In this document: positions 9,394 to 28,081 of the stretch, piece after piece
Layout: the number at the start of each line of letters is the position of its first letter
How positions within the stretch are numbered: the stretch's first letter is position 1
Origin: a bacterium
Lineage (GTDB): Bacteria > Auribacterota > UBA3054
Direction: 5' to 3'
Length of the DNA: 64,000 nt
NCBI GenBank assembly: GCA_017557885.1
Contig: JAFYXV010000002.1
Coordinates: forward strand, 255,056 to 319,055
Made by a program: the position numbers and the translations under genes
The notes under the pieces: generated by a model
Databases searched by the model: none
Told to the model about the DNA's origin: nothing
Seen by the model: the letters and a program-made list of their open reading frames with translations, nothing else

Positions 9394-10449
9394 GTGGCTT
9401 ATTCCTTTGATAACTTTAGCAGCCTCGCCAACGACCCCTTCGCGGACGTCAACGAGCAGATAAAGGATATCGAGCCTCTGGTCTTCGATAAAGGCGAAGA
9501 CAACACTTTCATCGCCTGCTTCAGGCGCTATCTGGCAGCCTGCGGCGACAATTTCCCCTACTATCTTCTGATGGCCGTCTCCGGCGCCGCCTTCCGTCTT
9601 CAGATACACTACGCCGGCTGGCGCCTTGTCTCATTGGACGCCGCCTGCGGCCAAAACCTCCTGCCCTTCCTCTATGAACAGACCGGGCACACTTTTGAGG
9701 AGCGCTGGATCTGCGCTTCAAGGGAGCGCCACGAAGCGGTGAAATACGAGATCCTGGAGCACCTGAAGGAAAAGCGCCCCGTCATCGGCCTTGGTCTGGA
9801 CGGCTACGCCCGCTACGGCCTGGTGACAGGCATCCGCCCGGGAGGGATCCTCATAGCCCAGGACTATTCCCTGAGTTTCTATCCCCATCCCGTCTCCGAG
9901 GAGATGGTCTGGTGCTATTTCATGGGCAAGAAAGATCGGCAAAAAAAGCCCACAGCGGAAAAAGACCTTTACATCGCCGGCTTCCGCCAGGCCCTCAAAA
10001 TGGCAAGATTGGAAAGAGTCCACGGCTATTACCTTGGCCAGACCGCCTACGCCTACTGGTACGCCACGCTGGTCAACCCCCAGCACCACGACCCCATAAG
10101 CCAGGACTGGCGGGCCCAGGAACGCAACGAGGGCAATTACCAGCTTATGAAGGATCTTCTGCACTCCCGCACCCAGGCCGCCCTGTTCTGCCGGGAGACC
10201 GCCCTCAACTACCCGGAGACCGCCACCTTCGCGGAAGCCGCCGCCACCTGCTTCGACGCCATGACTGAGGAGATCAGGCCCTTTTTGGACCGTCACATCG
10301 TCAGGCCCGCCGCCCACATCAACCAGGCCCGCCCCTGGACGCTCCGTGAGCGCCGCCAGCAGGCCAAAGCCCTGCAGAGGGTATCCGATATCGAATTAAA
10401 GGCGATCCCCCTTTTAGAGGCCGCCCTGACAATTTTAGAAGGAAAATAG
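9394..10449 (+). CDS. BtrH/C39-like cysteine-peptidase-fold protein of unknown role
   Basis: This 351-residue protein starts with GTG at 9394, 3 nt after purB. Residues 35-75 (NTFIACFRRYLAACGDNFPYY, then LLMAVSGAAFRL) resemble the N-terminal Cys-containing region of BtrH-like proteins, a papain/C39-related fold found in acyl transfer and some peptide-handling proteins. A central GLDGYARYGLVTGIRPGGILIAQDY could supply a catalytic or structural strand. The C-terminal 150 residues are helical and not recognised. It may be an enzyme acting on thioesters or peptides, but no substrate can be named. It belongs to the run of closely packed genes from 4298 to 12012. Confidence 0.8.
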   Translation: MAYSFDNFSSLANDPFADVNEQIKDIEPLVFDKGEDNTFIACFRRYLAACGDNFPYYLLMAVSGAAFRLQIHYAGWRLVSLDAACGQNLLPFLYEQTGHTFEERWICASRERHEAVKYEILEHLKEKRPVIGLGLDGYARYGLVTGIRPGGILIAQDYSLSFYPHPVSEEMVWCYFMGKKDRQKKPTAEKDLYIAGFRQALKMARLERVHGYYLGQTAYAYWYATLVNPQHHDPISQDWRAQERNEGNYQLMKDLLHSRTQAALFCRETALNYPETATFAEAAATCFDAMTEEIRPFLDRHIVRPAAHINQARPWTLRERRQQAKALQRVSDIELKAIPLLEAALTILEGK

Positions 10450-16419: not shown

Positions 16420-18645
16420 TCACTCCACTTTGGTGAGTTTCAGAACGGCCGAATCGTACTCCGGACGCATGGAGAAACCGATGCCGACTTCCATCAATGC
16501 CTCGCCGGTCAAAACCTCGCCGTTGACCACGGTGTGGAGTTTGGGATTGCCTTTTTTGTCCAGAAGGTAGTTGACTTCCTCCACTTTGTACCTGGCCTTG
16601 GGATCCAAGCCCTGGAGCTTCACGGGCGGCGGATAGTCGCCGCAATAGACCATGTTGAGGCCGTAGAAGAACTGCACGGCTTTTTTCTTGTTTTGAGAGA
16701 CGTACATTATGGAAGCGTAATTCTCTTTGTAGGGAGAAACGAGGCGGTAGAGGTCGCCCTGCTGGACAACGGGCCTTATTTCCTTTTTGTAAAGGTCGAT
16801 GGCCTTGGTGGAGAACTCAAGCTCCTCCTCGGTCATGTTCTTGGGATGCAGCTCAAGGCCCAGACGGCCGGACATGGCCACGTCGAAACGGTACTTGATG
16901 GGCGTCACTCTGCCTGTCTGATGGCTGGGAACGGCGGTGACATGGCAGGCCATGGCGTTGGCGGGATAGAACTGCGTCTCGCCCCACTGGATGAAGATCC
17001 TTTGCCTGGCGTCGGTGTCGTCGGAGCCCCAGAATTCCTCGGCGTGCTGCAGGAAGCCGTACTCCGCGTGGGCGCCGCCGGAAGAGCAAGCCTGGAAGAC
17101 GATCTTGGGGTATTTCTTGCGCAGTTTGGCGATAAGTTCATAAACGCCCATGGTGTAGTCGAACCAGAGGTTGGCGCATCTTTCGCCTTTCAGAAAATCC
17201 GAGCCGTAGTTCATGAAGTCCGCGTTGGCGTCCCACTTGATGTAGGAGAGGCCCGGGGCGGCTTTCAAAACTGCGTCGATCTGGTTGAAGATGTTTTCCC
17301 TGACCTCGGGGTTGGACATGTCCAGGACGACCTGGGTGCCGCCGCGGCCGCAGCGCAGTTCCCTGTTCTCGCCTCTTATGATCCACTCGGGATGGTCGTG
17401 GGCGATCTGGCTTCTGGTGTTGGCCATTTCCGGCTCGAACCAAAGGCCTAATTTAAGCCCCCGCTTCTTGGCCTGCTTGACAAGGTAATTGAGGCCCTTG
17501 GGAAGTTTCTCCCTGTTCCAGGTCCAGTCTCCCAAACCGGTGCAGCCGTTGTTGCGGACAAATTCGCCCTGGGCGAACCAGCCGTCGTCGATGACGAACA
17601 TCTCGCCGCCGATCCTCTTGACACCGTCCATCATGTCCAGAAGGACCTGGTCGGAAAGATTGAAATAAGCGCCCTCCCAGCTGTTCAGAAGAATGTTTCT
17701 CAGTTCGTGTCCCCTGGGAATGCAGAAATCCCTGGCCCAGGTGTGGAAGTTGCGGGAGACCTGGCCCTTTCCTTTGTCCGAGTAAGTGAGAAGGAATTTC
17801 GGGAGCGTCAGCGTCTTGCCGGGATCCAGGATATAGGGGCCGGAAAGGTTGGCGGCGCCGGCGTAGATGTGCAGATCGTCGTTGGCGTCGTGGAGGATGT
17901 CGATGTGCCAGGAGCCGGACCAGGCCAGGGCGCCGGCTATTATGTGACCCTCGGTCTCCGTGGCTTTTCCGCCGATGGAAAGCATAAAGGAGGGGTTGTT
18001 GCCCCAGGCGTCCCTGACGCCGGAACGGGCGTCCAATTCAAGATGTCCGCCGCGGGGGATCTCGCTTTCCGCCGCGAAAGCTTCCGAAGCCCAGGTGCCG
18101 TAGAGATTCTGGAGGAAGTAACGGTTGGAAAGGCCCCGGAACTTAAGTCCGGCGGAATCCATTCTGGGAAGCCTTACGGGCGTCTTCTCGTTGTGGCTCA
18201 GTTCCACCCAGGTCTCGATTATGTCGGTCTCGTGGGCCGCGCGGTAATGCTGTTTGACGAAGAAAGGATAAGCCCTGTCTTTGTAACTGAAGACATAGTG
18301 CTTGAAACCCTGCTTGTCCTTTATTTCCTCTATCCCCTCGCTCTTAAGTTCCGTGGTGGGGTCGCCGTTGGCGTGGATCGCCAAAAGGGCGCCGTGCTTG
18401 TTCATGGACTGCTGCTGGGGCTGAGTCTCCAAGTCTCCTCCGAAAGCCGGATAGGTTTCCTGAACGTTGCCGCCTAAAGTGTAGAACCAGCGCTCCGTCT
18501 GCCCCCACAGTTTCGCCACGTCCGCGGCGCTGGAGAGACGTTTGCCGTAATAAATAAGCGTCCATGTGTCCTTCCTGGGAACGAAGATCATCATGGTGTT
18601 TTTCGTTTTGATCTGAAAGATCTTTCCGACGGGGGCTTTTTTCAT
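16420..18645 (-). CDS. Alpha-galactosidase, GH36 family
   Basis: This 741-residue enzyme has the length and order of GH36: an N-terminal beta-supersandwich, a central (beta/alpha)8 barrel and a C-terminal beta domain. The catalytic nucleophile aspartate lies in LSYIKWDANADF near residue 472 and the acid/base aspartate in FWGSDDTDARQRIFIQWGE near residue 540. The CSSGGA motif (residues 517-522) is also typical. It would remove alpha-1,6-linked galactose from raffinose-family sugars or galactomannans. No signal peptide is present, so it probably acts in the cytoplasm. No transporter sits beside it. It is monocistronic, or reads through to the beta-helix gene. Confidence 0.94.
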   Translation of the reverse strand: MKKAPVGKIFQIKTKNTMMIFVPRKDTWTLIYYGKRLSSAADVAKLWGQTERWFYTLGGNVQETYPAFGGDLETQPQQQSMNKHGALLAIHANGDPTTELKSEGIEEIKDKQGFKHYVFSYKDRAYPFFVKQHYRAAHETDIIETWVELSHNEKTPVRLPRMDSAGLKFRGLSNRYFLQNLYGTWASEAFAAESEIPRGGHLELDARSGVRDAWGNNPSFMLSIGGKATETEGHIIAGALAWSGSWHIDILHDANDDLHIYAGAANLSGPYILDPGKTLTLPKFLLTYSDKGKGQVSRNFHTWARDFCIPRGHELRNILLNSWEGAYFNLSDQVLLDMMDGVKRIGGEMFVIDDGWFAQGEFVRNNGCTGLGDWTWNREKLPKGLNYLVKQAKKRGLKLGLWFEPEMANTRSQIAHDHPEWIIRGENRELRCGRGGTQVVLDMSNPEVRENIFNQIDAVLKAAPGLSYIKWDANADFMNYGSDFLKGERCANLWFDYTMGVYELIAKLRKKYPKIVFQACSSGGAHAEYGFLQHAEEFWGSDDTDARQRIFIQWGETQFYPANAMACHVTAVPSHQTGRVTPIKYRFDVAMSGRLGLELHPKNMTEEELEFSTKAIDLYKKEIRPVVQQGDLYRLVSPYKENYASIMYVSQNKKKAVQFFYGLNMVYCGDYPPPVKLQGLDPKARYKVEEVNYLLDKKGNPKLHTVVNGEVLTGEALMEVGIGFSMRPEYDSAVLKLTKVE

Positions 18646-18822: not shown

Positions 18823-19104
18823 ATGAAAAAGATCTTTCTTGCCGTCACCGTCCTCTTCTTTCTCTCTATCAGCGCCTACGCCACGCCGCCCTCCGGCGGC
18901 GGAGGGAGCGGCAGCGGAGGCCTCTCCCCGATCGGGGAGATCTACTGCGGCGGGGCGCAGACCAGCGTCCTAAGGAACGGACGACCCTTGTCCGGCTCTT
19001 CTTCCCTGGAGACCTACAGCCGGATCTTCCTCCTGCCGGAACCGGGGCTGCTTCCCCTCTTCCTGGCCCTTTTCCTAATCTCTAAAAAAACCAAACGGAG
19101 TTGA
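18823..19104 (+). CDS. Small exported protein with PEP-CTERM-like tail
   Basis: A 93-residue protein with signal peptide KKIFLAVTVLFFLSISAYA, a Gly/Ser-rich stretch (PPSGGGGSGSGG), a short central part with a single Cys, and a C-terminal end LLPEPGLLPLFLALFLISKKTKRS (residues 70-93). That end is Pro-Glu-Pro, a hydrophobic helix and a basic tail, as in PEP-CTERM sorting signals. This family is cut and anchored by an exosortase, which is not in the window. An AAGGAG site lies 8 nt before the ATG. It overlaps no neighbour but lies only 1 nt before the next gene, so the two are surely co-transcribed. Confidence 0.8.
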   Translation: MKKIFLAVTVLFFLSISAYATPPSGGGGSGSGGLSPIGEIYCGGAQTSVLRNGRPLSGSSSLETYSRIFLLPEPGLLPLFLALFLISKKTKRS

Positions 19105-19105
19105 A

Positions 19106-20824
19106 ATGAAAAAAACAATTGCCTTACTTTGCCTTGCCGTTGCGGCGCTGAGCCTGCGGGCGCAGGACCCCCTGCTGCCCGTGAGACTGGAGCTTGACTC
19201 CTCCTTTGCGCCGGCCAATTCCACGGCCTACCTGAAATTTACCATCCACACGGGGAACCCCGCTTCCGTTCTCTGGTCCAACAGTCTGCTGACTCCGGAC
19301 TACGAGCCCCTTTACGGCGTGGCCTGTCAGCTGAGCGGCAGCACCGCTTATCTCCTTCTGGGCAACACAGCGCTGCCCAATATGGCGGCGCTGCCCAAAG
19401 ACCTCTTCTCCGAAGGATCTGTCAGAAAAATAAGGGTCTGGATCGCCTCGAGCGCCAACGGGAGCTTCAGGCAGCTGACGCCGGATCTCGACCTGGTGGC
19501 CGCGCCCTATTCCCTTTATTCCGAGGAAAGCAAGGACGTGGACCCGGCCGTCATCGCCGAACACACCGGATCTCTTGCCTCCCTCAACAATTCCCTTAGG
19601 ACCGCCAACGCCAAAATAGCCGGATTGCAGGCGGTCTCCACGGGCTTGACCAACGGGACCGTCACCATCCCCTCGGCTGCCTCCTTCTTCAGCCGTCTTG
19701 TCACGGGAGCCTCCGGCGAGACGATCTACAAGATAAGCTCGGCGGTGAAAGGGCCGCCCGCCCCCGCCCTGACGCCCGAGCATTTCAGCATAACCTACGC
19801 CACGCATTTTTCCAGCTCCATCAGGGTAAAGGAAACCGCTTATCCCGAAAGCGTGACGCTTTACTTTAAAAACGCTTCGGAGATAGCGCCGCCCCAGGCG
19901 GTCTGCATTTTCCTGCCCAAGGCCGAGATCACGCTGTTGGCCAGCGCCGTTTCCGTCTCCACCGCCGCCTTCCCCCGCTGCGTTTACAGTTTTTCCCAAA
20001 ACGTTTCCCGCCTGGTACCGGGGGAATATTACGTTGGTTTGCGGACGACCTCCGGCAACGCGGCGATCCACCCCTATGTCTGCCAAAGCTACCGGCAGGG
20101 CGGCTCGCGGTATTATTACGAAGAGCCTGAGATAGAGCCCGTCATATCCGCCACCGTTCCGACCGTCGGACCCTATTGGAAATTCAGCGACGCCAAGGAG
20201 CTGTGGTTCGAGATCTCCTTCAGGGAAGACACGGGCCTGGCGCTCTCCTCCGCCGGGCTGACGGTGAAAGGCGGGCTCAGCGTCGGCTCCGACGCGGTGT
20301 TAACGGAGAGGAACATTTCGGGGAACGTTTCCTCCCTTCTGGGAGAAAGCGTTTTCATCGGCGAAGAGGCGCTCTCGCCGGATCTGAGAAGCAAGCTCAT
20401 AACCACCGCCGGCGGCTCCATAACGGGCGCCCTGACGGTGGCCGACCTTAGGCTTCCCAACAACGGCAACTGGTACATAGGGACCGCCTCCGCCCGCTGC
20501 GACCTGGTCCTGGTCAACACCAACGCCTGCCTGAGGTCTGAAACGGGAGACCTCCTCCTAGGCGCCTCAGGAAATATCAGGCCGCTGGCCTTCGTGGATT
20601 TCTCCCCCTCCCAGGGCGGCCGCGCGGATATTCCCAAAGGCAAAACGGAGATCGTCCTTTTCTCCTCCGGCATCTCCGACAATTCCGTCATCTGTGTCAC
20701 TCCCGCCCAGAGGATCGACACGCTCTACTGGGTGGAGACAGACCCGCTTGGAAGGGCCAAGCTCTGCCTGGGGACGGCCCTTGACCACACCGTGAGTTTT
20801 CACTATGTCCTCCTTAGAAAATAA
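19106..20824 (+). CDS. Secreted fibre-like protein of unknown function
   Basis: This 572-residue protein has a signal peptide ending near ALSLRAQ. Residues 20-140 (PVRLELDSSFAPANSTAYL, then ALWSN-like and LDLVAAPYSLYSEE) follow a pattern common in exported proteins that resemble bacteriophage tail-fibre heads. A later segment, LITTAGGSITGALTVADLRLP (residues 432-452), closely recalls the GGSMTGALTL repeats of tail fibres. I do not see a chaperone domain or a sorting tail. Its position straight after the small PEP-CTERM protein suggests a surface-displayed structure; this is inference. The family is otherwise unknown to me. Confidence 0.8.
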   Translation: MKKTIALLCLAVAALSLRAQDPLLPVRLELDSSFAPANSTAYLKFTIHTGNPASVLWSNSLLTPDYEPLYGVACQLSGSTAYLLLGNTALPNMAALPKDLFSEGSVRKIRVWIASSANGSFRQLTPDLDLVAAPYSLYSEESKDVDPAVIAEHTGSLASLNNSLRTANAKIAGLQAVSTGLTNGTVTIPSAASFFSRLVTGASGETIYKISSAVKGPPAPALTPEHFSITYATHFSSSIRVKETAYPESVTLYFKNASEIAPPQAVCIFLPKAEITLLASAVSVSTAAFPRCVYSFSQNVSRLVPGEYYVGLRTTSGNAAIHPYVCQSYRQGGSRYYYEEPEIEPVISATVPTVGPYWKFSDAKELWFEISFREDTGLALSSAGLTVKGGLSVGSDAVLTERNISGNVSSLLGESVFIGEEALSPDLRSKLITTAGGSITGALTVADLRLPNNGNWYIGTASARCDLVLVNTNACLRSETGDLLLGASGNIRPLAFVDFSPSQGGRADIPKGKTEIVLFSSGISDNSVICVTPAQRIDTLYWVETDPLGRAKLCLGTALDHTVSFHYVLLRK

Positions 20825-20889
20825 GCGTTTAAAAAGGCGCCGCGGGTTTTGTCCCCCTCCTTTCTCTGACGGCATCTTTTTTAACGCCA

Positions 20890-20912
20890 GGGAGGAGAGC
20901 TCATCTCCTCCC
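20890..20912 (+). other. Perfect 9-bp hairpin in the leader of the lipase-like gene
   Basis: GGGAGGAGA (20890-20898) pairs perfectly with TCTCCTCCC (20904-20912) across a 5-nt loop, 24 nt before the next ATG. There is no T-run, so it is not a standard terminator. It also locks a strong Shine-Dalgarno-like sequence in a stem. Confidence 0.7.
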
Positions 20913-20935
20913 GCCAACCCCATGAATCAGACACC

Positions 20936-22354
20936 ATGTCAAAACGCATCCCAACTTTTCTCCTGCTGTGCGCCTGCGCGCTGCTGTCTGATGATCAGCT
21001 TGACAACGACCACATCCTGCGCTTCAACAGGGAAAACCTCACCAACAGCTTTTCGGTGAGAAACAATCTTCTGAACTACGCCGGCTATGAAAACCCGGGC
21101 GACTGGCTCTCCTTCGAAACAGTGGACAACGGCGGCACGATGATATTCATCGCGGAAAACGCCGAGGAATACCTGGACCGCCGGGACGCAATGGTTTCCG
21201 TGACCTACGAGGGCAGCAACTCCTTCGGCCAGGCCGTCTCGGAGGGCCGCGCCTTCCGTTTCCTCTGTCAATGGGACGACTGCGGAGCGATAAGGGAGGA
21301 CGAACCGTCCCCCGGCTCCATCGCGGCGACGCCCAAGGATTTCCTCGGCTCCGCTCCGGACGAAGACACCTGGCACTTCACGCCCGCAAGGCAAGCCTAC
21401 TGCCTGGAATACGCCGCCAGCAACGATCTTTTGGTCGTGGCCAGGCAAAGCGGCGGGCAGGTCTGGAGCAACGCCGTGGAGACCATCGGAAGCAACGCCA
21501 AAAGGCTTTACCTTACGAACATCGCGCTGAACAGCCAGGTGAACTTCAAGCTCTCCAACCCCTCCTCCAACCAGACAAGCACCATATCGTACAGGCTGAA
21601 CCTGACGCCCGTCCGGCCGCTGATACTGGTCCACGGCATCCGCTCCAGCCCCACCAGCCCCTCCGATCCTGGAAGCGCCTTCGGAGAATTCAAGGAAAAG
21701 GCGTTCAAATACAAGGAATTCCCTCCGGTCATGGTCTTTGATTTCCCCTGGAATTCCAACCGGGGAAGCATCCTGGATTACTGCGGAGGCCTTGCCGACA
21801 TCCGCACGCTTTACGGCTTCGCCTACGGAAAATGCGGCGACTGGAAGCTGAAGCCCGTTTTCTTCGTCCACTCCATGGGAGGGCTCCTCCTGCTGGAGCA
21901 GCTGAAGGAGGACGGTTTCAGAAGTTTCGCCAATGCGCTCATATTCGGAGGCTCGCCTTTCTGCGGCTCCGACCTCGCCAACTTCTTAAATTTCAAAAGG
22001 GCCGGGAAAGCCATGAAGCTGGTGGGCCGGGCCCTCAACAAAGTCAGGACCACGGACAAAAACCTCAAGCTCCTCGCCCGGGGCTCCTCCGAGATCTGGA
22101 AAAGGATGAAGGATCTTCCCGGCGAGATCAAATCCCTCTTCATCGTGGGAGACGGGAAAAACGCTTATCCCACCGGCCAGGGCGACGGCACCGTGAACCT
22201 CTCCTCCGCTTCGCTGAAAAATTCCGTCCCCTGGCCCGAAGGCGAGATACTGAACGTCGGGCTGGAGCACGGCGAGATCGTGGAAATAAATTTTCCGCCG
22301 CACCCGAAGCACCTGAACATAATCAATAAGATCAAAACGATCCTGGAGCACTGA
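20936..22354 (+). CDS. Lipase-like alpha/beta hydrolase, exported
   Basis: A 472-residue protein with a short hydrophobic N-terminus (PTFLLLCACALL) that may be a signal peptide. The first 210 residues form an unrecognised domain. The hydrolase part begins with RPLILVHGIRSSPTSPSD (oxyanion-hole HG motif). The nucleophile follows in VFFVHSMGGLLLLEQL near residue 309, an HSMGG form of GXSXG. Late residues GDGTVNLSS (Asp) and GLEHGEIVE (His) complete a likely triad. This resembles PGAP1/lipase families that act on esters of lipids or GPI. It shares the bases ATGA with the next gene and belongs to the exported four-gene cluster. Confidence 0.85.
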   Translation: MSKRIPTFLLLCACALLSDDQLDNDHILRFNRENLTNSFSVRNNLLNYAGYENPGDWLSFETVDNGGTMIFIAENAEEYLDRRDAMVSVTYEGSNSFGQAVSEGRAFRFLCQWDDCGAIREDEPSPGSIAATPKDFLGSAPDEDTWHFTPARQAYCLEYAASNDLLVVARQSGGQVWSNAVETIGSNAKRLYLTNIALNSQVNFKLSNPSSNQTSTISYRLNLTPVRPLILVHGIRSSPTSPSDPGSAFGEFKEKAFKYKEFPPVMVFDFPWNSNRGSILDYCGGLADIRTLYGFAYGKCGDWKLKPVFFVHSMGGLLLLEQLKEDGFRSFANALIFGGSPFCGSDLANFLNFKRAGKAMKLVGRALNKVRTTDKNLKLLARGSSEIWKRMKDLPGEIKSLFIVGDGKNAYPTGQGDGTVNLSSASLKNSVPWPEGEILNVGLEHGEIVEINFPPHPKHLNIINKIKTILEH

Positions 22355-24078
22355 TGAAAAAATATTTGTTTCTTTTCCTTCTGGCCCCCGCCCTTCTGGG
22401 CGGCTACAACACCTCGTTGGAAATAAGGAAGGATCTTCCCGGTCTGGATATATTGATAAGCGAGGACGGCCTCAAGTGGAATTATCTGGAGGAAGGGGAA
22501 GGCTTCGAAAAAGACTACCTTTACTCCTCCCTGGAGATCCCGGAAAAAAACAAGACCTGTTATTTTTCCCTGGGCAGAAAAACTCCTTTCAAACACGCCC
22601 GCTCGCTTTTCCGGGCCCTCAGGCCGCTCAGCGCCCCCCTGGCGGCTCCCCTGAAATCCCGGGCCTCCAACTTCCTGGATCTTTCCCTCGGCAAAGCCAC
22701 GGCGGGAAGATCCGTAAACCTGGACGGCCTGGAGGTGAAAAAGCTCGCCTTCTCCCTTCTGCCCGACGCCGACGAGGACGGCCTGCCCGACGATAAGGAA
22801 TACGCCCTCTACGGAGCCTGGCCGGGGCTTTGGGACACCGACGGCGACGGATTGCACGACGGGATAGAAGCCTTTGGCGGGCTCTCTCCCTTCCTGGCCG
22901 ACAGCGACGGCGACGGGCTCACGGACGCGAACGACCCTCACCCCCTCGTTCCGGAGTTTGGATTGTCCTACGAGGCCTGGTCCTCCCATTGGGCGCGCGT
23001 CGTAAACCAAAGGCCGAGTCTCAACGCTCCCGGGATCTTGAGCGAAAGCAATTACGTCGCCGGAAGGACGCCGCTCCAGGGTGCCGGAGCGGGCGAGGCT
23101 GTCTTCTCCCCTGCTTTTGTGACCGTCGGCGGGATCCGCGAACTCACCAACGCCTTTTCCCTGACCTTTTTCTCCGAAGGCTCGGTGACAGGACTGGTCT
23201 TGTTCAGCGAAGAAGCGGAACTCGTCCCGGATTCGGTGCAGCTGATCCCGGAGGATATGCTGCCCGCCGTTCCCGAAGGCCGCGGCGCCCTGCCCTTCCT
23301 GGCCCGCCACGGAATGCCTTTAAATTTTACGCTGATCCTGAAGGAAGTTCCGGAGGAAAACGAAGAGATCCGCCTTGTGACATCGGTTGGCTTGCGAAGC
23401 GAAAAGCTCATAGTGGCGGCATTAGGGGCGCAGCCTGCCAAGCCGACGCTTCTGCTTCCGGAGAACAAAAGTCAAGTCAGCCAAAGCGTAAGCTTCCGCT
23501 GGGAATATCCGGGTAACAACGTCACCAACTATATCCTTAGCGTGAGCGGCGAGGAATACCGGGAGTTTTCCCTTTCCGGCTCCTCCTTCGAGCTTGCCCT
23601 TTCCTCTTCCGGAAACTACGCCTGGAGCGTCACGGCTCAAGGGCCGGGTTTTGAAAGCGAGAGCGAGACACGGATCTTTTTCTATTCCAGCCCGCAGGGC
23701 GAAGCGGACGGCGACGGCGACGGCTATTCCGACAACGAGGAAAAACGCCTGGGCTCCGATCCCCAGGATTCCCGGGACGTTCCCTTGCAGGCGGTCTCCA
23801 ACGCCCTTTTGAGAGCAAGTAAGGATCTGTTTTTCAGCCATAGGCTGCAGGCCCGGGGCGGCCTGCGTCCCCTGAGTTTCCGAGCCCTCTCGGTTCTTCC
23901 CCGGGGGCTGAAGCTTAGCCGGGAGGGCTTGCTGACCGGACTGCCTCTCCGCAAGGGAAGGTTCCCCCTGCGGGTGGAAATTTCCGACCAGGCGGAAAAG
24001 AGCCTCGTCACCGAAACGGAGATCGTAATTGAAAACGGCCGGAGCGACATCCTCAAACTCGGCGGAAACGATCGCTAA
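22354..24078 (+). CDS. Secreted calcium-repeat (TSP3-like) and Ig-like protein
   Basis: This 574-residue protein starts with signal peptide MKKYLFLFLLAPALLGGY. Residues 130-190 hold aspartate-rich thrombospondin type-3-like repeats (DADEDGLPDDKEYAL, WDTDGDGLHDGIEAF, DSDGDGLTDANDPHPLV). A beta-sandwich region follows, then a fibronectin-like PTLLLPENKSQVSQSVSFRW stretch from about residue 367. A single late calcium repeat comes next (DGDGDGYSDNEEKRLGSDPQDS), and finally a putative Ig (He_PIG) domain with SFRALSVLPRGLKLSREGLLTGLPLRKGRFPLRVEI. It shares the same architecture as the protein at 26468-28081. The start overlaps the lipase stop by ATGA, so the two are translationally coupled. Confidence 0.9.
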   Translation: MKKYLFLFLLAPALLGGYNTSLEIRKDLPGLDILISEDGLKWNYLEEGEGFEKDYLYSSLEIPEKNKTCYFSLGRKTPFKHARSLFRALRPLSAPLAAPLKSRASNFLDLSLGKATAGRSVNLDGLEVKKLAFSLLPDADEDGLPDDKEYALYGAWPGLWDTDGDGLHDGIEAFGGLSPFLADSDGDGLTDANDPHPLVPEFGLSYEAWSSHWARVVNQRPSLNAPGILSESNYVAGRTPLQGAGAGEAVFSPAFVTVGGIRELTNAFSLTFFSEGSVTGLVLFSEEAELVPDSVQLIPEDMLPAVPEGRGALPFLARHGMPLNFTLILKEVPEENEEIRLVTSVGLRSEKLIVAALGAQPAKPTLLLPENKSQVSQSVSFRWEYPGNNVTNYILSVSGEEYREFSLSGSSFELALSSSGNYAWSVTAQGPGFESESETRIFFYSSPQGEADGDGDGYSDNEEKRLGSDPQDSRDVPLQAVSNALLRASKDLFFSHRLQARGGLRPLSFRALSVLPRGLKLSREGLLTGLPLRKGRFPLRVEISDQAEKSLVTETEIVIENGRSDILKLGGNDR

Positions 24079-24152: not shown

Positions 24153-25520
24153 GTGAAAAGAGGAAACGAAGTCAAACCTTTGTGCGATTTTTACGCCGGG
24201 GATCTGGAGCGCTTCAATTTTCTGAAAAAAGAGCTGCACCTGTATTTAAGGCAGAAAAACATCAAATACGGGGAATTTCTGCTGCACGCGGAAATGGCCC
24301 CCCTCTTGATAAACCGTAAGGAACTGCAGGCCTTCAGGGACACCGCGGAACTCGTTCTGAAAGGCTGCGAGATATTTTCCCGCCTGGCCCTGGAAAACGA
24401 AAAATGGCTGAAGGACTGCCTGCCGGGCGGCACGATGCGGGAGCTGGCCAAAGTCGATCCCGGCTACGATCAGTTCATCCCCTGCGCGCGCTTCGACTCT
24501 TTTCCGAAAAAGTCCGGTCCGGTTCTTATAGAACTGAACACGGACGGCTGCTCCGCCATGAGCAACATCGACGCTTTTCAAAAGCTGTACCTGGAGCTGA
24601 TAGCGAAGGAAAAATTCTCCGGCCTGGCCTCCGCCGCCGCGCCGGAGATCATGCCGCATCTTTTGGAAACGCTTATAAAGTGCTACCGTTCCTTCAGGAA
24701 ACGCTTTCCCAACGCCGCCGCGCCCTGGCCGGCCAGGCCGACCGTCGCCATTCTGGACTGGGAAGAGGAACCCACCAGCTGGGAATTTTACGCCTGCGCG
24801 GAATATTTCCGCAGCAAAGGCTTCAAGACCGTTGTTACGGATCCTTCCCAATTGCGGTATTCGGAAGGCATACTGAGCGTAGCCGGGGAAAGGATCCATC
24901 TTGTTTACCGCCGCCTCCTGGGGGAGGACTGGGAGAAGAAGCCCAAGCTTTTGGAGCCCCTGGCCGCCGCCTACCGGGACCACAAGGTCTGCTTGGTCGG
25001 CTCTCCCCGCTCCCAGATCGCCTTCAGCAAAAAGCTTTTCGCCTACCTGAGACACCAAGAGGTCTTGAAGCGCTTCCCGCCCAAAGTCAGGGAAGCCGTC
25101 CTGAAGACCGTCCCCTGGACCATCCCCTTGAAAAAAAGCTTGAAAAAAGTCCTTTTCAAAGGCAGGGAGATCGATCCCCTTCCCTTTGTCCTGGAAAACA
25201 AGGACTTCTTCGTTCTGAAGCCCTGCGTCTCGAAATGCGGGCTGGGCATCCTACAGGGCTGCCACACGGAAAAAGAAGCCTGGCAAAAAGCGGTGAAAGC
25301 CGCTTTGAAAAAAGATTTCATCATCCAGGAGTTCGTGCCCTTGGAAACGGCGCTCTTCCCGGTCCACGGTAAGACAAGGGAAGACGAGAAGCGCTACCTG
25401 CACACTGGACTTTATGTCTTCGGAGGCAAGTTTTCCGGCTTCTTCGGCCGGACCTGCAAGGATCCGCTCTTGACGCTGCGCCACGGCGAAAGAATGCTGG
25501 CCGTGCTGGTGAAGAAATAA
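24153..25520 (+). CDS. Circularly permuted ATP-grasp protein
   Basis: This 455-residue protein starts with GTG. Several motifs fit the circularly permuted ATP-grasp group related to glutathionylspermidine synthetase: GPVLIELNTDGCSAMSNIDAF (residues 122-142), TVAILDWEEEPTSWEFYACAEYF (201-223), IHLVYRRLLGEDW (249-261), FFVLKPCVSKCGLGILQG (353-370) and FIIQEFVPLETALFPV (390-405). Such enzymes use ATP to join a carboxylate to an amine, often on peptides or polyamines. No peptide precursor or amidase partner is adjacent. It is monocistronic, ended by a strong terminator, with a regulator encoded convergently. Confidence 0.85.
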   Translation: MKRGNEVKPLCDFYAGDLERFNFLKKELHLYLRQKNIKYGEFLLHAEMAPLLINRKELQAFRDTAELVLKGCEIFSRLALENEKWLKDCLPGGTMRELAKVDPGYDQFIPCARFDSFPKKSGPVLIELNTDGCSAMSNIDAFQKLYLELIAKEKFSGLASAAAPEIMPHLLETLIKCYRSFRKRFPNAAAPWPARPTVAILDWEEEPTSWEFYACAEYFRSKGFKTVVTDPSQLRYSEGILSVAGERIHLVYRRLLGEDWEKKPKLLEPLAAAYRDHKVCLVGSPRSQIAFSKKLFAYLRHQEVLKRFPPKVREAVLKTVPWTIPLKKSLKKVLFKGREIDPLPFVLENKDFFVLKPCVSKCGLGILQGCHTEKEAWQKAVKAALKKDFIIQEFVPLETALFPVHGKTREDEKRYLHTGLYVFGGKFSGFFGRTCKDPLLTLRHGERMLAVLVKK

Positions 25521-25525
25521 CGGGA

Positions 25526-25553
25526 GGGGGGCCCGAAGGCCCCCCCTTTTTTT
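25526..25553 (+). terminator. Strong terminator between convergent genes
   Basis: An 8-bp GGGGGGCC/GGCCCCCC stem (25526-25533 with 25538-25545) with loop CGAA is followed by seven T. On the other strand the loop is TTCG closed by C-G, a very stable tetraloop, though without a T-run. Confidence 0.92.
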
Positions 25554-26467: not shown

Positions 26468-28081
26468 TTACTTGGGGTTGGGCGGCTCTTCCAAGGCCGG
26501 AAGAACATTTAGGATGAAGACCTTCTTGCGGGTGGTTTTGTTCTGATCCCGCATGCCGATGGTGAACTTGTATGTTCCTTCCCTTTCCGGAAGGCCAAGC
26601 AGCAGGCCGTCCTCTTTAAGGAGGAATCCCGGAGGATTGCCGGGAGTCAGCATCATCGTTTCATAGGGCGGCGCGCCGCCGGATGCCTTGAAGTTGAAGT
26701 AATACTGCTCTTTTATCCTGGCGTCGGGAAGTTTTTCCGGCGTGGTGAATCTGAAAGGAACGCTCGCGGGGTCGCTTGGATCAGAATCAGCCACGACTTC
26801 GTCGTTGTCGCAGTACCCGTCCTCGTCGGTGTCGAACATTCCGCTGTTGGGCAAATACCTGAAAAGTTTGCTGGCGCCGCAGGAAGCCTTGCCCTTGGCG
26901 TTTTCGCAGGCCACCTGCCAGATGTAAGTGCCGGGAAGTTCCGGCCTGAAGATATAGCGGTTTTTCTTCAGGGCCTTGTCTTCAAAGGGCGTCAGCTCTC
27001 CCTGGGATCTGAAATAGACCCTGAGATGGTAAATAAGATCATCCTCCGAGGCGTGCCAGTTCAAAAGGATCTCGTTTTCCGTAAGTATCTCCTCGCCTTC
27101 TTCAGGCAAAGTCAATTCAGGAACGGAGGGCGCGCAGTCTTTCAAGGGGTTTTTGATGATCAGATTGCTTTTCCAATATCCGTCCTTGTCCCTGACCCTG
27201 ATCTTTTCCTGAGCGGGCTGATCTGGGGAAGCCGGAGGAAGGATCACGGTGAAGTCCAGGGGAACGGAATAGCGGGACAAGAAAAGGCAGCCCTGCATGT
27301 CGAAGGGCATGAAAAGGCCCTCCGTCAGTTCGCAGCCCTGGGCTTTGGCGGGAAAGATCTTTGCCGGCATATTGTTCAGACTGCTTATGCAAAGCATCCC
27401 GGTGACGGAGGTGTGGGCGAAGAAGACCGCCGTGACAGTGGCGGTGAGGGCCGCGCCTTCTTTCAAGGTTATTTCGGCGGGAGAAAAGAGCGCTATTTTT
27501 TTATCCGGCTTCATGAAGGGGCAGGTCCCCATTTCGAATTCCTTCTCGTTGGAAAAGGAATCCCCGTCGTAGTCTTTCCTCTTGGGAATGAGGCCTTCCG
27601 TGGACAAGCCCAGAAGCAGGGCTTTCTGCTGCCACCACAGGACCCAGTCTTCATAGCCGGCGCGCATAAAAGGCTTCGTCGGAAAAGGGTCTTCCAGATC
27701 GGACAGGCCGTCTCCGTCCGTGTCGTAAAAAAGCGGATTGGTGTGGGGGATCTTTTGCCCGAGGGATCCTTTCAAACGGTAGGCCAGGAGCTCCTCCCCG
27801 TCCAGAAGGCCGTCCCCGTCCGTGTCGGGGTTCTTGGGATTCGTGCTGTAGGCTATTACTTCATTCTCATTCAGAAGGCCGTCTCCGTCCAGATCGTCCT
27901 CGGCGGATTTCCCGGCTACCCTGTCGTAAATAGAGGAGATGGTTTTTTCTTTCTTGACTTTGGGTGCTGCGTCCTGGAGGACGTCGTCTATGAAGTTCAC
28001 AGCCGCGGCGGGCTTCTGCTCGGCGCCAAAGCTTATAAGGGCGGCGAGGGAGATGAACATCAGCAATGTTTTTCTGCTCAT
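26468..28081 (-). CDS. Secreted calcium-repeat (TSP3-like) and Ig-like protein, paralogue
   Basis: A 537-residue paralogue of the protein at 22354-24078, encoded on the opposite strand. It has signal peptide MSRKTLLMFISLAALISFGAE. TSP3-like repeats fill about residues 55-135 (DDLDGDGLLNENEVIA, PDTDGDGLLDGEEL, YDTDGDGLSDLEDPFP). A beta-rich region follows, then a fibronectin-like segment beginning PSVPELTLPEEGEEILTENE. A late calcium repeat (DTDEDGYCDNDEVVADSDPSDP) comes next. The final He_PIG-like Ig domain reads YETMMLTPGNPPGFLLKEDGLLLGLPEREGTYKFTI. Calcium would be expected to stiffen the repeats outside the cell. There is no sorting tail. Confidence 0.9.
   Translation of the reverse strand: MSRKTLLMFISLAALISFGAEQKPAAAVNFIDDVLQDAAPKVKKEKTISSIYDRVAGKSAEDDLDGDGLLNENEVIAYSTNPKNPDTDGDGLLDGEELLAYRLKGSLGQKIPHTNPLFYDTDGDGLSDLEDPFPTKPFMRAGYEDWVLWWQQKALLLGLSTEGLIPKRKDYDGDSFSNEKEFEMGTCPFMKPDKKIALFSPAEITLKEGAALTATVTAVFFAHTSVTGMLCISSLNNMPAKIFPAKAQGCELTEGLFMPFDMQGCLFLSRYSVPLDFTVILPPASPDQPAQEKIRVRDKDGYWKSNLIIKNPLKDCAPSVPELTLPEEGEEILTENEILLNWHASEDDLIYHLRVYFRSQGELTPFEDKALKKNRYIFRPELPGTYIWQVACENAKGKASCGASKLFRYLPNSGMFDTDEDGYCDNDEVVADSDPSDPASVPFRFTTPEKLPDARIKEQYYFNFKASGGAPPYETMMLTPGNPPGFLLKEDGLLLGLPEREGTYKFTIGMRDQNKTTRKKVFILNVLPALEEPPNPK

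Follow-up and report, generated by a model that had tools for sequence, protein, structure and literature searches.

Do four neighbouring genes for exported proteins, at positions 18823-24078 of a 64,000-nucleotide stretch from a bacterium of the phylum Auribacterota (GenBank contig JAFYXV010000002.1; the whole stretch is hereafter the window), form a functional set, and what might such a set do? A preliminary description of this DNA had proposed a cluster coding for a small PEP-CTERM protein (g1), a fibre-like protein (g2), a lipase-like hydrolase (g3) and a calcium-repeat/Ig-like protein (g4). The cluster was confirmed, with all four open reading frames (ORFs) on the + strand and each starting with an obvious Sec signal peptide. 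We assign a probability of roughly 0.5 to the reading that g2, g3 and g4 code for a surface-associated adhesin-esterase module that is exported and in which the fibre tip, the enzyme and a calcium-repeat scaffold are exchanged as one specificity unit while the fibre stalk stays resident. The features of the cluster are as follows.

18823..19104, + strand: g1, 93-aa exported protein with a PEP-CTERM-like C-terminus; accessory, at the window-type locus only
19106..20824, + strand: g2, 572-aa exported fibre protein
20825..20935, + strand: intergenic RNA element, a partly covarying stem followed by an invariant hairpin at 20890-20912
20936..22354, + strand: g3, 472-aa exported alpha/beta-hydrolase, lipase fold with an N-terminal beta-sandwich
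22354..24078, + strand: g4, 574-aa exported protein with TSP3 calcium-type repeats and Ig-like regions

The distances of 1 nt between g1 and g2 and of 111 nt between g2 and g3 were as first described, and the last junction proved to be a 1-nt overlap (TGATG) rather than ATGA.

The fibre, hydrolase and TSP3/Ig genes recur together

The hydrolase was found in 8/8 genomes of the genus examined and in two from a second family within the same taxonomic order. Elsewhere in the phylum (44 genomes) and among 145 relatives it was essentially lacking, with only weak matches in genomes G122 and G019, and the idea that relatives keep the genes together was borne out genus-wide and in the other family's two genomes but not in this wider sample. 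Six of the genus relatives match contigs whose records name isolates of the rumen, reticulum or omasum, the animals being yak, water buffalo and sheep. The order common to the genus at the window locus is GH36, g1, g2, g3, g4, a gene for a 455-aa protein, a helix-turn-helix (HTH) gene and a TSP3 paralogue; the contigs of one genome (G005) cover this locus only in part. The four genes are syntenic in the genus at 36-79% identity, and the pairwise ratio of nonsynonymous to synonymous substitutions (dN/dS) was 0.25-0.42 for each of them, indicating that all four are real genes under purifying selection.

The core of fibre, alpha/beta-hydrolase and TSP3/Ig genes also recurs as divergent paralogous cassettes, giving about 24 hydrolase loci in 10 genomes (2 in the window's genome of 2.24 Mb, 3 in G006, 5 in G007, 8 in G002 and 1 in each of the others). 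A profile of the fibre tip (A5) gave 23 strong matches in 10 genomes, and the hydrolase adjoins every one of them (23/23); the single hydrolase locus lacking a tip, on contig C47 of G002, begins at the contig end. The genes of the second cassette of the window's genome (locus L010, contig C9) overlap at their stop and start codons and encode, in this order, a fibre, a hydrolase, a second TSP3 protein, a TSP3/Ig protein and an exported GH36-like enzyme. Elsewhere the hydrolase and the TSP3/Ig protein are fused as one 857-aa ORF (L054, 8707-11280), and another locus (L060) retains the complete set in permuted order. Exported GH36-like enzymes are present in eight islands, and conserve a K-x-D motif and a second Asp, which we take to be the catalytic residues expected of GH36.

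Because the order is kept in the genus under purifying selection and the core recurs many times, the cluster is more than a chance arrangement. A functional link between the genes is supported by this recurrence, by the hydrolase-TSP3/Ig fusion and by the co-divergence of the parts reported below. To this extent the preliminary description is upheld; a single surface structure acting on membranes or esterified glycans, as it suggested, is a conjecture. It is very unlikely that the genes are independent neighbours kept together without any joint function: low-GC islands might carry genes along passively, but the set persists at 20-30% identity with altered order, with a fusion, and with the pairing kept in another family. 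Our literature searches returned no description of such a gene set.

Tip, hydrolase and TSP3/Ig protein diverge together, apart from the stalk

We compared the parts of nine non-orthologous cassette copies by Mantel tests. The fibre tip was correlated with the hydrolase (r = 0.76, p = 0.003), with the N-terminal domain of the hydrolase (r = 0.83, p = 0.0004) and with the C-terminus of the TSP3/Ig protein (r = 0.74), and the hydrolase was correlated with the TSP3/Ig protein (r = 0.84, p = 0.0004). Comparisons of the stalk with other parts gave r = 0.00-0.03, and 0.31 with the TSP3 protein (p = 0.09). Since stalk similarity tracks no other part, the stalk is exchanged independently. Two pairs of closely related cassettes point to where this happens. 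Over 5.6 kb, reaching from the distal cassette end into the fibre gene, L051 and L052 share 94.3% identity, against 83.7% in the stalk part; for L039 and L040 the figures are 89% outside the stalk part and 77% within it. The breakpoints of both pairs lie in the fibre stalk. A direct repeat of about 100 bp from the 5' region of the L051 fibre gene (2426-2525) is found past the cassette (at about 9598-9697), perhaps the remnant of a second cassette.

A comparable modular fibre system is that of the mosaic adhesive trimer (MAT) fibres of Bdellovibrio, in which the N-terminal domain is invariant and the tips are swapped (Caulton et al. 2024, PMC10769870). Both sets are secreted modular fibres with phage-like tips, many paralogues per genome and exchanged modules, the MATs being trimeric and g2 probably so. 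The pattern of exchange is the opposite one, in that the cassettes swap the N-terminal stalk and keep the tip linked with the hydrolase. Membership of g2 in the MAT family was rejected, as the N-domain model NF053851 scored 11.9 against a cut-off of 60 bits and the best of 20 members gave an E-value of 0.034. Whatever the substrate, the cassettes look like a case in which a surface specificity unit of several proteins is exchanged horizontally, its breakpoint lying within the fibre stalk, the reverse of Bdellovibrio tip-swapping. We regard it as possible rather than probable that they are mobile surface cassettes of a kind not described before, with a tip, its own secreted lipase and a calcium-repeat scaffold (often with a glycosidase) recombined onto a resident stalk, retargeting a predicted surface lipid- or ester-degrading machine by swapping tip and enzymes together.

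Paralogous cassettes occupy low-GC islands at variable sites

In all 14 paralogous cassettes measured (L010, L039-L041, L050-L054, L057 and L059-L062) GC content was 34-43%, compared with 53-58% in the flanks. Window-type cassettes have genome-level GC and the same position across the genus; the island character belongs to the paralogous cassettes only. Two sites showed variable occupancy. At the site flanked by a 212-aa gene and metG, there is a cassette in the window's genome and a different one, adjacent to metG and cut off by the contig end, in G002; G001, G003, G004 and G005 have an empty site with a gap of ~115 bp. Between tRNA-Leu(gag) and a convergent 658-aa gene, a cassette is present in G002 and G006, is interrupted by an insertion sequence in G005, and is missing from G000 and G003. 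Mis-binning does not explain the islands in these metagenome-assembled genomes, because the flanks share contigs with them. The L051 and L052 cassettes indicate recent horizontal transfer: they share 94.3% identity at sites unrelated to each other, and the window loci of their two host species are only 78-88% identical.

No integrase or transposase was found within intact cassettes. Both the metG-site and the tRNA-Leu-site islands start just past an intrinsic terminator, and such a terminator lies 53-196 nt 5' of the first gene in 7/12 islands tested; we draw no mechanism from this, because terminators commonly close genes. A two-ORF transposase of the same type stands beside a truncated TSP3/Ig gene on contig C13 (L011, 6477-8232) and inside a fibre gene of G005 (L123, 2010-3259). 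The metG-site island has as neighbours (L010, 14134-19000) the genes of two large proteins that carry metalloprotease motifs of the HE(L/A)GH type (HELGHSFGLPHIEG); one of these proteins ends in PEP-CTERM.

Diverse, multi-copy cassettes of low GC, exchanged horizontally and combining a lipase with an adhesive tip, would also be expected of an antagonistic weapon, whose fibre binds competing bacteria and whose lipase attacks their membranes, spreading like polymorphic toxin systems. Lipase effectors are known among such systems. We consider this explanation improbable: there is no conserved small immunity-type gene, the hydrolase being followed by the TSP3/Ig gene or a non-conserved ORF; the fibre and the enzyme are exported by Sec as separate proteins; and the eight copies with GH36-like enzymes suggest a sugar-bearing substrate. 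The likeness to polymorphic toxin systems lies in modular proteins with exchanged specificity modules, and the difference in the lack of an immunity gene and of a toxin C-terminal cassette, with the enzyme secreted separately (PMC3482391).

Predicted properties of the exported proteins

Structure modelling identifies g3 as a lipase-fold alpha/beta-hydrolase and predicted esterase. The model is good (predicted local distance difference test score, pLDDT, 83.4; predicted template modelling score, pTM, 0.81), showing an N-terminal beta-sandwich and a lipase fold, and the best PDB structure matches are lipases (E = 4e-7; template modelling score by target 0.6). In an alignment of g3 with 21 relatives (21-71% identity to g3), Ser313, Asp417 and His445 and the oxyanion residues His233-Gly234 were invariant in 22/22 hydrolases. 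The lipase-like assignment of the preliminary description thus stands on a clear catalytic triad and fold, although the Pfam match is sub-threshold (12.8 against a family cut-off of 26.3 bits); a weak LCAT match was seen in 9/22. With known lipase-fold alpha/beta-hydrolases (LCAT PF02450, PGAP1 and Abhydrolase_6; PDB 5h6b, 4lip and PlaB 6zth) g3 shares the fold, the nucleophile-elbow Ser, the Asp/His order and the oxyanion HG; it differs from them by the extra N-terminal beta-sandwich and matches curated families only marginally in sequence. In the distant genome G122, a single secreted protein of 2697 aa (L042, 3794-11887) unites a PGAP1-like hydrolase domain with many Ig-type domains and a TSP3 repeat.

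The fibre protein g2 consists of a signal peptide, an N-terminal/stalk part, a jelly-roll-like middle domain (aa ~212-340) and a tailspike-like C-terminal tip (aa ~500-572). Its last ~70 residues resemble tailspike C-termini (7eea, 74 columns, 2.9 A; BFVD A0A482IFD6, 71 columns, 2.3 A), and structure comparison gave the middle beta-sandwich a weak resemblance to F5/8-type and CBM32 domains. Long AxTxxKI-type repeats occur in the stalk of some relatives. When PDB sequences were searched with a fibre profile, only coiled-coil and unrelated chance matches came up. The tip fold raises the question of whether these are phage-derived tail fibre genes or parts of a phage-tail-like particle. This origin is scarcely credible and largely refuted by the Sec signal peptides on all members and by the lack of structural phage genes nearby. 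Searches of 50,697 phage records gave no match, nor did the hydrolase match viral contigs, and PHROGs yielded nothing informative.

The calcium-repeat character of g4 was upheld, its TSP3_bac repeats scoring 32.5 bits (Pfam cut-off 25), with D.D.DG motifs at aa 138, 161, 183 and 452. Bacterial TSP3 surface proteins such as MtsC/MtsD and CglD, which are exported and serve cohesion or motility, share the TSP3 repeats; g4 is far under their equivalog cut-offs and has another architecture.

The C-terminus of g1 has a PEP motif, a hydrophobic stretch and a basic tail, a pattern kept in six orthologues at 34-72% identity (L043 and L045-L049). This much of the PEP-CTERM assignment held, and a match to PF07589 did not: the family has 29 matches in the window's genome, g1 is not among them, and g1 has no Pfam match at all. 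The gene is present in 6/6 relatives whose contigs span its position, and a g1-like gene was sought in the paralogous cassettes and not found there. The four-gene unit originally proposed therefore reduces to its last three genes, with g1 an accessory of the window-type locus. The window's genome encodes an exosortase (PF09721, 126 bits, over the cut-off), which together with the g1 C-terminus resembles PEP-CTERM/exosortase surface sorting; the three core proteins differ in having no PEP-CTERM tail.

These features could suit a coat or matrix of the cell itself, built by the fibre and TSP3/Ig proteins alongside the PEP-CTERM/exosortase system, with the hydrolase editing or releasing the cell's own lipids or acylated exopolysaccharide. 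The PEP-CTERM-like g1, the exosortase and the many PEP-CTERM proteins of the genome are in keeping with such a role, as is the finding that fibres standing alone lie mostly beside giant PEP-CTERM proteins of 1200-1500 aa. We hold it to be unlikely, given that paralogous cassettes do without g1, and that the widely varying copy number and horizontal movement are odd for a housekeeping coat.

Proposed function and substrate

Joint work of the three proteins at the cell surface is very probable, because they are always found together in the genus and in some relatives, with most copies on moving islands. In the adhesin-esterase module, the fibre, probably trimeric and with its exchangeable N-terminal stalk as anchor or spacer, would present the tailspike-like tip, and the secreted lipase-fold hydrolase and the calcium-repeat/Ig scaffold would act with the tip on an ester-bearing extracellular target. 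The proteins may be in mutual contact at the cell surface, where the tip would direct the enzyme to its target.

Plant chloroplast galactolipids are the substrate we would guess at, the least certain part of the proposal and a doubtful one. The guess comes from the alpha-galactosidase-type enzymes that accompany the window locus and eight islands, from the hosts being rumen bacteria of forage-fed animals, and from galactolipid hydrolysis being known in grazing ruminants (PMC9626764). Literature searches for digalactosyldiacylglycerol (DGDG) lipolysis in the rumen found nothing. The alpha-galactosidase-type enzymes of the window locus and of the islands belong to two GH36 groups with no match to each other. 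Rumen lipid breakdown is credited mainly to a few organisms, namely Butyrivibrio-like strains for galactolipids and phospholipids and Anaerovibrio for triacylglycerols (PMC9626764); if the module does break down membrane lipids, whether from plants or other sources, at the cell surface, an uncultured contributor so far unrecognised would join them.

Several points weigh against the module as proposed. Co-divergence is no proof of contact, because physical linkage alone gives the same result. Trimerisation and binding of the fibre are deduced, the monomer model being poor overall (pLDDT 59). Four shorter fibres (~510 aa; L119, L120 and L124 among the loci) stand alone, with no hydrolase. The alpha-galactosidase neighbours are possibly coincidental in a genome with two Melibiase matches over the cut-off and several weak ones, the GH36 gene beside g1 being the best of them. 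Finally, a secretion route across the outer membrane was not traced, although secretins are present.

Intergenic RNA element and translation signals

Strong folding is predicted for the 111-nt stretch separating g2 from g3 (z = -3.0 to -4.3 in 5 orthologues), which has no match in Rfam. It contains an invariant hairpin, GGGAGGAG-loop-CTCCTCCC, which occurs once per genome in 7/8 genus genomes, every time at the window-type locus. In the stem 5' of this hairpin five pairs vary on both sides, a covariation that is only suggestive with seven imperfectly aligned sequences. A ribosome-binding site was missing at the hydrolase start in 10/10 copies and present for the fibre in 8/10 (Fisher p = 0.0007, an optimistic value as the copies are related). 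Judging from these start sites, the cell would make less hydrolase than fibre.

Neighbouring genes

Two further features of the window flank the cluster.

16420..18645, - strand: GH36 alpha-galactosidase, divergent neighbour, no signal peptide; syntenic at orthologous loci
26468..28081, - strand: g4 paralogue, TSP3/He_PIG; also syntenic

A pattern scan for terminator-like sites gave no excess over shuffled sequences. Genus-wide, the position 3' of g4 is held by the gene for the 455-aa protein (24153-25520 in the window), which has a GTG start and no Pfam family and is followed by the strongest terminator-like site, at 25526-25545.

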